Source: Methanosphaera stadtmanae (lineage in GTDB: Archaea; Methanobacteriota; Methanobacteria; Methanobacteriales; Methanobacteriaceae). Taken from it: a stretch of 49,957 bases of DNA. Below are positions 26,610-31,133 of this stretch, one piece after another (the stretch's first letter is position 1; every line of letters starts with the position of its first letter). Below the pieces are notes generated by a model. It was not told where the DNA came from. It made no database searches and was given only the letters and a program-made list of their open reading frames with translations. The DNA is taken from NCBI GenBank assembly GCA_015062805.1, contig SUTQ01000017.1:1-49957 (forward strand), read 5' to 3'. The translations under genes were made by a program, and so were the position numbers.

Positions 26610-26928
26610 ACCTAAACTTTTTTTATAACCTTTTTTTTAATTTGGCTTAAAATTTTTTTTTAATAACTAAATTCCATTCACTTAATTATTAACGGATTAC
26701 ATATATAATTATTAATAATGATAAATTATATTTTAATTTTTTTATGATAAATTATATTTTTTGATAAGAAAATTAATTAATTAAAATAACATATATATTA
26801 ATTAATAGTAAAAAATTGTCTTTTTAACAAAGATTGATTTTTTAATTAAATTATTTTAATAAATATTATAGGATATTTTATAAGGATTAATGAGGCAAAT
26901 TATTAAAAAAAATAAGGAATGGGATAAA
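26610..26928 (+). promoter_or_regulatory. Long AT-rich intergenic region with 17-base direct repeat
   Basis: This 319-base stretch holds no convincing gene. A poly-T terminator for the Sec61-beta gene is at 26619-26661. A 17-base sequence, ATGATAAATTATATTTT, occurs twice in direct orientation (26718-26734 and 26744-26760), 26 bases apart. TATA-like stretches precede the repeat-rich protein gene. The composition is so AT-rich that chance repeats are possible. Confidence 0.4.
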
Positions 26929-28182
26929 ATGAGTGATAAAGAATCCAAATTTGTAGATACAAATCCAGAAAACCAAAAACCACACAATATATCTGGACAA
27001 AATCCAAGATCTGTTCAAACATTACACAAATCTCAAGTAAAACCTAGATCTCAAGATAAGGACATTGAAATTGAAATAGTGGAAAACACAGATACAGTTT
27101 ACAAAACAAAAACAACCTATCTAGTTCAAAAAGCTAAAATGCAATTAAAAAGACGTGTAGCTCCTGGTGTTTCTGAAATTATTATTAGAAAAAATGAAGA
27201 AAAAAGAAAACTTGCTGAAGAACAAGCAAAAAAAGAAGCTGAAGCAAAAGCTGCAGAAGAACAAGCTGCTAATGAGGAATTAGAAGCTAAAGTACAAAAA
27301 GAAATCGAAAAACAAGATGAAAAAATTGCTCAAAGAAAAGGAGTTCAGGAAGAAGCAGATGTTGAAGTAGAACCTGTAGAAGATGTTGTAGATGAAGAAA
27401 TTGAAGAAACTACAACAGAAACAACTTCAACTAAAACCAATTTATCATCAGATGGCAAATCATTCACGCAAACACTCAGAGAACAAGGACTTATCTATGG
27501 TCAAAAAATTGTGGATGCTGTGGAAAAAGCAAAACCTGAAATAGAAGCAACAATTGAAGATGCAAAAAAAATTGTTGACATAGAAGCTGAAAAAGCAAAA
27601 AATGAACCAAGTTCCGAAGGTAAATCATTCACACAAATGCTCAGAGAACAAGGATTCATTGAAGGACAAAAAATTATCCAAGCCATAGAAAAAGCAAAAC
27701 CTGAAATAGAAGCAACAATCAAAGAAGCTAAAACAACAGTTGAAAAAGTTGTTGAAGAAGCTACTGCACCAAAAGAAACAGAAACAAAACAAGAAGAAAC
27801 AACAACCGACGGAAAATCATTCACACAAACACTCAGAGAACAAGGATTCATACAAACAGGAACCGAAACAACCCAAGCACCAAAACAAGAAACAACTAAA
27901 GCAAAAGAAGAAAAAGTAGAAGAAGTTTCAAAACCAGTTGAAACACCAAAACAAGAAGAAACAACAACCGACGGAAAATCATTCACACAAACACTCAGAG
28001 AACAAGGATTCATACAAACAGGAACCGAAACAACCCAAGCACCAAAACAAGAAACAACTAAAGCAAAAGAAGAAAAAGTAGAAGAAGTTTCAAAACCTGT
28101 AGAAACAAAAAAAGAAGATGATTCTTCAAACGGTGAAGTTAAAACATTTATCGATTTAATAAGATCAGAAGGCTTATTATAA
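26929..28182 (+). CDS. Acidic repeat protein with five [14 protein letters not shown]-type motifs
   Basis: I do not recognise this family. From ATG 26929 it has 417 residues (an ATG at 26890 would add 13). The layout is a polar N-terminus and then a basic segment (about 55-90, [24 protein letters not shown]). A strongly charged, probably coiled-coil stretch follows, and then an E/T/K-rich region carrying four copies of GKSFTQ(T/M)LREQG(L/F)I. A fifth, degenerate copy ends the protein exactly ([14 protein letters not shown]). Two copies sit in a near-identical 162-bp DNA repeat. No signal peptide or membrane helix is visible. The gene is 13 bases before the phosphomevalonate dehydratase small subunit, apparently in one transcript. 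Confidence 0.8.
27785..28097 (+). repeat. 162-bp tandem repeat inside the acidic repeat protein
   Basis: The unit 27785-27946 is repeated from 27947 to at least 28097 without differences that I can see (151 of 162 bases), so about 1.9 copies. The unit is a multiple of three (54 codons) and keeps the reading frame. Near identity at silent sites means a recent duplication or ongoing gene conversion. Confidence 0.9.
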
Positions 28183-28600: not shown

Positions 28601-28704
28601 TTTTTTTTTCTCTGTTTATTATTACATTGTTAAGTATATATATTACTTTTAAGAAAATATTTAGTATAACCTAAAATTTAATTTAAAAAAAAGGAGTGAC
28701 GTAA

Positions 28705-28926
28705 ATGAAAACAGACACATTTGTTGTTGAAGATATGCATTGTGATGCCTGTGTTAATACCATCACAAAAACATTAACCAGCAATGAAAACGTATCAAAT
28801 GTTGAAGCCGATCTTTCTTCAAAAGAAGTAAATGTAGAATACAATGAAGAAAATTACGATGTAGAAGAAATATTGAGTTCATTAGATATGATTGGCTTCC
28901 CTGCAACTGTTAAAAAAAAACCTTAA
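28705..28926 (+). CDS. copZ: CopZ-like copper chaperone / first metal-binding domain of CopA
   Basis: A 73-residue heavy-metal-associated (HMA) domain with the copper site MHCDAC (C13, C16) and a beta-alpha-beta-beta-alpha-beta pattern. It starts at ATG 28705 after AGGAGTGA. The frame ends at TAA 28924-28926, immediately after a run of nine A (28912-28920) coding KKK. Reading one base back in that run continues straight into CopA. The protein can therefore be both a free chaperone and the N-terminal domain of the ATPase. A TATA-like AAGTATATATATTA lies at about 28632-28645. Confidence 0.88.
   Translation: MKTDTFVVEDMHCDACVNTITKTLTSNENVSNVEADLSSKEVNVEYNEENYDVEEILSSLDMIGFPATVKKKP
28912..28920 (+). 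other. A9 slippery run, candidate -1 frameshift or transcript slippage site
   Basis: The zero frame reads GTT AAA AAA AAA CCT TAA. A -1 slip on the A run, or one extra A added by RNA polymerase, gives GTT AAA AAA AAA ACC TTA AAC GTT GCA GGT ATG ACA TGT, which joins the two HMA domains without a break. About ten bases downstream, 28931-28976 can fold into a two-tier hairpin. The inner stem is CATGTG/CACGTG (28942-28947 with 28957-28962, one G-U pair), and the outer stem TGCAGGT pairs with ACCT and GCA around a CC bulge. Folding was judged by eye only. Confidence 0.6.
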
Positions 28927-28937
28927 ACGTTGCAGGT

Positions 28938-31133
28938 ATGACATGTGTAATGTGTTCACGTGCAGTAACCTCCGCAGTTTCAAAAATGCCCGGAGTATAT
29001 TCAGTTCATGTTAATTTAGTCTCCGAAACAGCAGATGTACTTTACAATCCAAAAATTGTCACAACTGATGATATTGGAGACAGAATTAACCTTATCGGTT
29101 ATGAATATATGGGCATTCATGACGATAATTCTATTAATAATGATATTCTGGAAAAAAAGCATGCGGAAAATCAGAAACACAAACTTTATAGAATTAGTGT
29201 AGGATTCTTTTTTTCAGCTTTATTAATGTATTTAATGTTTGGAAATGTTGATTTAGGACATAATGCATCATATATATTATTGACAATTTCAATATTACCT
29301 TTCATTTATGTTTCATATCCTATTATAAAATCAGGCTTAACCTCTTTAAGACACTTAAATTTAAATATGGATGTAATGTATACGTTAGGTATTGGAATCT
29401 CATTCATAGCAAGTGTTCTCAGTACTTTTCATCTTTTGGGAACAAGTCATTTCATGTTATATGATACCAGCATCATGCTTGGATCATTTTTAATGCTTGG
29501 TAAATATCTGGAGGACAGAGCCAAAGGAAAAACATCTGATTCCATCAAAAAACTAGTTCAACTTAAGGCAACAGATGCAACGGTTGAAAAAATGGTTGAC
29601 GGACAGATAGTTCAGAAAAAGGTTCCCATTAACGAAGTCTTTAAGGGCAACATTGTTATTGTAAAACCTGGTGAAAAGATTCCCCTAGATGGAAAAATAA
29701 TTGAAGGAAAAAGTTATGTGGATGAATCATTGGTAACGGGAGAATCAATGCCTGTTCTGAAAGAAGTTTCATCCAACGTTATTGGTGGTTCAATCAACAA
29801 GGAAGGATCATTTAAATTTGTTGTTACCAACACCAGTGAAAAGACAGTATTATCCCATATAATTTCAATGGTCCAGGATGCTCAAAACTCCAGCCCACCA
29901 ATACAGAAATTAGCAGATAAAGTAATAAAATATTTCATTCCAACAATCCTGATAATCGCTTTAATCTCATTTGTTATCTGGTATTTCTATTTAGGAAGCC
30001 CATTTTTATACAGTTTAAGCATTTTCATTTCAGTGATTGTGGTAGCATGTCCATGTTCACTGGGTTTAGCCATTCCTACTGCATTAACTGTTGGTGTAGG
30101 TCTTGCATCAAAATATGGAATTCTAATAAAAGATGGGGAAACCCTGGAGATTTCAGATAAAATTAATCATGTATTACTTGATAAAACTGGAACAATAACT
30201 AATGGTCACCCTGTTTTTAGTGAAATAATTAATTATTCCGAAAACAACGATGAAGAAATATTAAAGATTGCACGTTCAATTGAACAGTATTCCCAACATC
30301 CAATTTCTACGGCAATATTTAATGATGAAAACAAAGACAACTATGATTTATATCAAACTGAAAACTTTGAAAACATTTCAGGAAAAGGGGTTACTGCAGA
30401 GATAAACAATAAAAAATATATCCTTGGAAACAAAAAAATAATGGAAGACAATGAGATAAACATTCCCCAGAACGTTATTTCTGATTTGGAAAAACAGGAA
30501 TCAAACCTTAAAACTAGTATCTTATTGGCAGACGAAAAGATTCTTGCAATAATCTCTATTGAAGATACAATTAAAGAAAACAGTACTAAAGCAATAAATG
30601 AACTTCATAAAATGGGTATTAGAACTTCACTGGTTAGTGGAGACAATAAGATAACTTCAGAAAAAGTTGCTCAAAAAGTTGGAATAACAGATGTAATATC
30701 AGAAGTCTTGCCTCAAGGAAAATTAGATTATGTGAAAAAAATGCAATCATTAAATAAAATAGTGGCATTTATCGGAGATGGAATAAATGATGCACCTTCC
30801 CTAACAAAATCTGATGTAGGAATCGCTATGGGTACAGGAACAGATGTTGCAATTGAATCCGGAGATATGATTCTTATTAATGGTGATTTATTAAATGCTG
30901 TTGCAGGTATTCAAATAAGTAAAAAAACAATGTCCCGAGTTAAATTAAATTTATTTTGGGCTTTCGCTTACAATGTTATACTTATTCCTATAGCTGCAGG
31001 AATACTAATACCATGGGGTATTTTCTTTAGACCAGAATACAGTGCATTTGCAATGGCCTTAAGTTCTGTTACTGTCATCACATTATCTTTACTGTTGAAA
31101 AGATATGTGCCTGAAACTTTTAAAGATGGATAA
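28938..31133 (+). CDS. copA: Copper-exporting P1B-type ATPase CopA (main frame)
   Basis: A heavy-metal P-type ATPase. Motifs in order are the second HMA site MTCVMC at the very start of this frame, an eight-helix membrane domain, the actuator loop TGES, the transmembrane metal site CPC (C371-P-C373), the phosphorylation motif DKTGT (D415), the HP motif in QHPIST, the hinge GDGINDAP, and a late MALSS segment typical of Cu(I) pumps. The first possible start, ATG 28938, lies inside the conserved GMTC loop and cuts off the first strand of the HMA fold. The real product is therefore more likely an 809-residue fusion made by slippage at 28912-28920. If ATG 28938 is used, the protein has 731 residues. 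Confidence 0.93.
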   Translation: MTCVMCSRAVTSAVSKMPGVYSVHVNLVSETADVLYNPKIVTTDDIGDRINLIGYEYMGIHDDNSINNDILEKKHAENQKHKLYRISVGFFFSALLMYLMFGNVDLGHNASYILLTISILPFIYVSYPIIKSGLTSLRHLNLNMDVMYTLGIGISFIASVLSTFHLLGTSHFMLYDTSIMLGSFLMLGKYLEDRAKGKTSDSIKKLVQLKATDATVEKMVDGQIVQKKVPINEVFKGNIVIVKPGEKIPLDGKIIEGKSYVDESLVTGESMPVLKEVSSNVIGGSINKEGSFKFVVTNTSEKTVLSHIISMVQDAQNSSPPIQKLADKVIKYFIPTILIIALISFVIWYFYLGSPFLYSLSIFISVIVVACPCSLGLAIPTALTVGVGLASKYGILIKDGETLEISDKINHVLLDKTGTITNGHPVFSEIINYSENNDEEILKIARSIEQYSQHPISTAIFNDENKDNYDLYQTENFENISGKGVTAEINNKKYILGNKKIMEDNEINIPQNVISDLEKQESNLKTSILLADEKILAIISIEDTIKENSTKAINELHKMGIRTSLVSGDNKITSEKVAQKVGITDVISEVLPQGKLDYVKKMQSLNKIVAFIGDGINDAPSLTKSDVGIAMGTGTDVAIESGDMILINGDLLNAVAGIQISKKTMSRVKLNLFWAFAYNVILIPIAAGILIPWGIFFRPEYSAFAMALSSVTVITLSLLLKRYVPETFKDG

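Follow-up and report, generated by a model that had tools for sequence, protein, structure and literature searches.

The question raised by this locus is whether a small chaperone-like protein and a copper-exporting ATPase, encoded one behind the other in different reading frames, are the products of two genes or of one gene read in two frames. The window, that is, the whole stretch of DNA analysed (49,957 nucleotides), is contig C46 of a 2.1 Mb Methanosphaera genome, and the features described below for the junction lie on its forward strand. A Shine-Dalgarno-like GGAGTGA, read in the sequence at 28693..28699, stands 5 bases 5' of the ATG of a zero-frame open reading frame (ORF; 28705..28926) of 73 residues, which encodes a free, CopZ-like HMA domain (HMA1) bearing the metal site MHCDAC and ends in KKKP before its stop; purine-rich sites of the GGAG/GAGG type are found 5' of the HMA1 start at many related loci. 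The 3' end of this ORF reads GTT AAA AAA AAA CCT TAA, with the stop (28924..28926) two codons past a run of nine A residues (A9; 28912..28920), the candidate frame-change site, which includes the heptamer A_AAA_AAA at 28914-28920. In the -1 frame, a TAA at 28911..28913 shuts the CopA frame 5' of the run, and the open part (28920..31133; 737 codons, stop at 31131-31133) begins ACC (28920) TTA AAC GTT GCA GGT and reaches its first ATG at 28938..28940, which encodes the Met of a GMTC motif and is an unlikely start. A -1 shift at A9 gives ...VKKK-TLNVAGMTC..., and joins 72 to 737 residues in an 809-residue CopA with two HMA domains. The positions, the stop, the A9 run and the length of the -1 product had been described in an earlier note on this DNA, and all were confirmed in the sequence. 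Elsewhere in the window, at 26890-28182, a 430-residue ORF displays several copies of a 14-residue repeat between Glu/Lys-rich stretches.

The identity of the two halves is well defined by their domains. The Pfam HMA profile matches HMA1 with 55.8 bits over positions 1-61 of 62, in agreement with the earlier note's view that a complete HMA domain ends at the TAA just past the nine A residues, and matches HMA2 in the -1 frame over positions 1-62 of 62. HMA1 resembles the solved HMA domains of copper ATPases as well as CopZ. With its complete HMA domain and CxxC site, the zero-frame product is predicted to be a CopZ-like chaperone, but it is not called CopZ because its score of 45 bits lies under the curated NCBIfam CopZ cut-off of 91 bits. 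The -1-frame part is assigned by its ATPase core as a copper-translocating P1B-type ATPase (CopA), the core exceeding the curated cut-offs of both TIGR01511 (579 bits; cut-off 397) and TIGR01525 (598 bits; cut-off 346). The CPC motif of the predicted membrane copper site is present within VVACPCSLG.

The junction was read in 20 Methanosphaera genomes, one per species, its alignment in related genomes having been proposed in the earlier note as a check, and in 18 of the 20 exactly A9, a near zero-frame stop and the -1 relation of CopA are found together. In all 18, the base before the run is T or C and the base after it is C, HMA1 occupies the zero frame, and its stop is retained two codons on; those species with TCA in place of the TAA at 28911-28913 have another -1-frame stop further 5', with no start codon between. 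The arrangement is kept by G014, which forms the first branch of the CopA tree with a CopA of only 52% identity, and by Candidatus M. massiliense (genome so taken). Two species depart from it: M. stadtmanae (our genome G017, so taken) has A10 at the junction and thereby a single open frame, while G019 has a single open frame and no A run. By the CopA tree, both of these in-frame junctions appear to be derived states, and the A9 arrangement probably dates back to the ancestor of the genus, with two later losses. The frame arrangement is not essential, given that two of 20 species are in-frame. An in-frame fusion in relatives had been named in the earlier note as a finding that would speak against recoding; such fusions do occur in these two species but, as both are derived in the tree, they provide no evidence that A9 is an error. 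At one locus in G012 (L176; contig C117, ~9.7-11.3 kb), the copZ/copA junction is present twice with equal scores, 1206 bases apart, one copy being cut after ~180 CopA codons, which reflects either a tandem duplication of recent origin or an artefact of the assembly.

Homopolymers are error-prone and one genome reads A10, and on those grounds the junction might be put down to an error in sequencing or assembly, or to decay of the gene. This explanation is scarcely credible in the face of identical runs of nine in 18 species, one of them (Candidatus M. massiliense) from a combined Illumina and Nanopore assembly (PMC10845953), and of a pN/pS of 0.26-0.32 across both HMA domains and the ATPase. 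The tendency of A runs to slip in replication, together with the occurrence of both A9 and A10 among species, would suit phase variation, in which switching between the two lengths at the DNA level turns CopA off or on between cells. However, 18 species with A9 against one with A10 is not a mixed distribution, and selection maintains both the zero-frame stop and the HMA1 protein, so that phase variation is also highly improbable.

Outside the genus, the junction takes another form. Every CopA among the matches listed from 16 other genera of the family is a single open frame; 40 CopA of other genera were read at the sequence level, all in-frame, and their linkers are without an A run wherever both HMA motifs were located. 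A scan of 152 genomes of the phylum for A8 or longer just 5' of GMxCxxC found no such run at an HMA1-HMA2 junction outside Methanosphaera; the remaining hits lie before a first HMA domain, before a stand-alone copZ, or in G151, where no assignment was made. Neighbouring HMA domains are in different frames in two of 80 diverse ATPase relatives; both cases look like separate genes ~100 bases apart with no slip site, and were rejected as further cases.

Kept in 18 of 20 congeneric species, the junction is well beyond a chance arrangement, and constraint is seen on the run, on the stop and on the codons that follow them. In a codon alignment of the A9 sequences, of which 16 are distinct, all three Lys codons of the run are AAA in 16 of 16 and the two A residues outside the heptamer are likewise invariant; by contrast, not one of the six further invariant Lys columns consists of AAA throughout, and the adjoining Thr and Gly codons are free to vary at their third positions. 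In every sequence, the [Leu/Ile] codon that comes after the run spares the zero-frame stop, Ile being always ATA against a usage of ~40-44%; the naive probability of retaining the stop under codon usage is 6e-5, a figure that, like all such probabilities here, overstates the strength of the case because the species share ancestry. Synonymous constraint peaks a second time 60-75 nt downstream, but the gene has comparable peaks at other places, and this one was set aside. Programmed recoding is recognized by a slip-prone site, a nearby stop and a frame relation whose conservation among species exceeds codon chance, and these are found together at this junction.

The same codons bear on whether copZ might be followed by a separate copA, translated from ATG 28938 by reinitiation past the nearby stop. 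That ATG is conserved as the Met of GMTC, stands 11 bases past the stop and is the start that annotation programs will call; indeed, CopA in the A9 species will be called as two genes with the CopA start wrong, a caution for annotation. As the earlier note had recognized, no start precedes this ATG and its use would truncate HMA2, which would lose its first strand (profile positions 1-6, 8.5 bits); the absence of ATG, GTG and TTG between the upstream -1-frame stop and the GMTC ATG extends to all 18 A9 species. The six codons before the ATG, T-[LI]-N-[VI]-[AG]-G, have a pN/pS of 0.22 if read in the -1 frame but of 1.70 if read in the zero frame, a contrast of purifying selection which argues that they are translated as part of CopA. 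A pair of separate genes would also leave unexplained why A9 is invariant and why copA is a single open frame in both exceptions and in all other genera, and is improbable.

The A9 run is all the more striking against the coding background of the genus. Long runs were counted in 1.25 Mb from three species (G000, G008 and G017), with expectations drawn from codon shuffles within genes. Methanosphaera genes strongly shun runs of at least 8 A or 8 T, of which non-coding DNA is full: runs of nine or more occur at 0.6-1.0 per kb in non-coding and 0.007-0.027 per kb in coding sequence. Exact A9 was seen 12 times in coding sequence against 65 expected, coding A10 once against 20 expected, the sole case being copA of M. 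stadtmanae itself, and KKK is spelled with three AAA codons in 10 of 87 cases against ~48 expected. The junction therefore keeps what the coding genome otherwise avoids. This avoidance suggests that real slippage occurs on such runs in Methanosphaera, and replication slippage may be a partial cause of it. Taken together, the invariant A9, the avoidance of long runs and a purifying selection that, between run and ATG, acts in the -1 frame only make an error, a pseudogene or an independent start of CopA unlikely. The same 1.25 Mb, scanned for frame changes at A8/T8 or longer, yielded no second case this strong. One site seen in G008 (contig C1, ~99586, forward strand) has A8 where a 171-residue ORF ends and a +1-frame ORF of 273 codons, without a start codon for 60 codons, continues; it is a candidate for a frame change or a pseudogene.

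The locus is thus very probably a single recoded copA gene, with a CopZ-like protein as the default product and a two-HMA CopA as the product of a frame change, and it is from sequence that we infer the production of both proteins and their roles. Zero-frame reading of the A9 message would yield the free 73-residue HMA copper chaperone; a one-base change of frame at A9 would fuse HMA1 to the -1-frame remainder and yield the 809-residue copper-exporting pump; and the common start site would set the ratio of chaperone to pump. This is the proposal of the earlier note, in which the zero frame gives the chaperone and the -1 frame the pump, the reverse of E. coli copA, and it is strongly supported by the genus-wide conservation of A9, stop and frame relation and by the two exceptions.

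Of these exceptions, G019 provides a natural experiment in which the two products would have been split by duplication. It carries a separate copZ of 73 residues (L183 426-647) upstream of an in-frame CopA ORF of 811 residues, in which HMA1 is without CxxC and reads MSDKSS instead. This CopZ falls inside the Methanosphaera HMA1 clade, apart from the copZ of other genera, on short sequences with long branches, and is with moderate support a duplicate of HMA1; this state would be expected if duplication had separated the two products of one gene. In each of the other 19 Methanosphaera species, no additional HMA domain exceeds the Pfam cut-off, G012 merely repeating its own locus. A stand-alone copZ accompanies an in-frame CopA in 13 of the 20 genomes that were sampled outside the genus. 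In the sampled genomes of four genera (g5, g8, g15 and g17), the HMA domains are limited to the in-frame pair of CopA, with no stand-alone copZ, so that not every member of the family has a free chaperone.

How the frame would be changed is a question on which the protein product is silent, as slippage of RNA polymerase from A9 to A10 and a -1 slip of the ribosome would give an identical protein. The earlier note had mentioned polymerase slippage as an equivalent; that equivalence holds, and the weight given to the two is adjusted here in that polymerase slippage is at least as likely as ribosomal frameshifting. An unbroken and conserved A run of about nine or more, by which transcriptional slippage is recognized, is found as A9 in 18 species and as A10 in one. 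A purely ribosomal event, in which A9 is transcribed faithfully and tandem tRNA-Lys slip -1 on A_AAA_AAA, is possible but doubtful. In its favour, the heptamer lies in phase, A_AAA_AAT is the slip site of archaeal fucA1 (PMC8211752), magnesium chelatase sites of A7-A11 shift 10-63% in E. coli, longer runs more (PMC3711429), and the mild depletion of in-phase A7 (0.79) in coding sequence points to some ribosomal slippage. On the other side, avoidance of A8 is without phase specificity, the observed/expected ratio being 0.61 in phase 0, where no heptamer is in phase, and 0.67 and 0.44 in phases 1 and 2, where it is. No Shine-Dalgarno-like stimulator is seen by inspection at the usual distance upstream of the run. 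Downstream, single sequences fold just 3' of the run among the strongest windows of the gene, but no consensus fold is obtained (RNAalifold 0; -6.2 only with ribosum scoring), and the z obtained from codon-preserving shuffles, -1.1 +/- 0.35, is driven by three species with a local CATGAC...GTCATG hairpin. The hairpin that the earlier note had placed ten bases downstream of the run is thus weakly supported, its pairing not being conserved, and it was rejected as a conserved stimulatory element. Finally, the A10 of M. stadtmanae could give both products by polymerase slippage, whereas its CopZ would be impossible to obtain by a -1 ribosomal shift. Because of the missing conserved stimulator, the A8 avoidance that does not follow the heptamer phase and the A10 of M. 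stadtmanae, we lean to polymerase slippage, which, if the gene is recoded as proposed, is slightly favoured as the cause of the frame change, with ribosomal slippage on the heptamer holding a somewhat smaller share of the expectation. The fullest reading, that a conserved and selected programmed transcriptional slippage in a cellular archaeal gene sets the chaperone to pump ratio throughout the genus, with its logic inverted relative to E. coli copA and resolved by duplication in G019, is put forward tentatively, its chances being close to even. Cultured Methanosphaera species exist in which recoding can be tested.

Poly-A recoding has precedents in other genes. Polymerase slippage at A9 has been shown experimentally for dnaX of Thermus (PMC1088944), and dnaX of some Chlorobi is of a two-ORF type with A10, in which recoding is needed for the longer product (PMC3711429). 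Methanosphaera copA shares with these the poly-A run of 9-10 and the nearby stop, and with the two-ORF type the same logic, although dnaX is a different gene in a different domain of life and its slippage in Thermus is demonstrated, whereas that of copA is a proposal. Among archaea, a 2021 review lists fucA1 as the sole reported programmed -1 frameshift, its reason unknown, with magnesium chelatase suggested (PMC8211752). Like Methanosphaera copA, fucA1 of Saccharolobus solfataricus is an archaeal cellular gene with an A-rich slip site and a second ORF in the -1 frame (PMC8211752), but it is not conserved among the Sulfolobales, where it is mostly full-length, and it has no known purpose, whereas the copA arrangement is conserved in its genus and has two plausible products. 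The -1 frameshift of magnesium chelatase (Methanocaldococcus, Methanococcus and some bacteria) also concerns a methanogen gene with a poly-A slip site, but the gene is unrelated to copA and its frameshifting was tested in E. coli only (PMC3711429). Methanosphaera copA would thus offer an archaeal recoding site that is conserved across a genus (18 of 20 species) and has a plausible purpose, namely two copper proteins from one transcript.

The nearest parallel is copA of Escherichia coli, in which, according to summaries in three papers (PMC5009743, PMC9548414, PMC10187127), zero-frame reading gives the 834-residue pump and a programmed -1 ribosomal frameshift, credited to Meydan et al. 2017 and Drees et al. 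2017, gives a chaperone of ~70 residues. In both systems, one two-HMA copper-ATPase gene would supply a free HMA chaperone and a pump by a frame change at the HMA1-HMA2 junction. A literature search, with most subscription papers outside its reach, turned up no description of copper-ATPase recoding in archaea, Methanosphaera included; what is new is therefore not copA recoding itself, already known from E. coli, but its putative occurrence with inverted logic in an archaeal genus. In contrast to E. coli, the default frame in the 18 Methanosphaera species would give the chaperone and the shifted frame the pump, and the slip site is A9 without a conserved stimulator. As the other genera of the Methanobacteriaceae are in-frame, the Methanosphaera arrangement apparently arose independently. 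The comparison suggests that E. coli and Methanosphaera have converged, with opposite default frames, on a single gene that supplies both copper proteins, and such convergence would imply that the coupling of chaperone output to pump output is itself selected.
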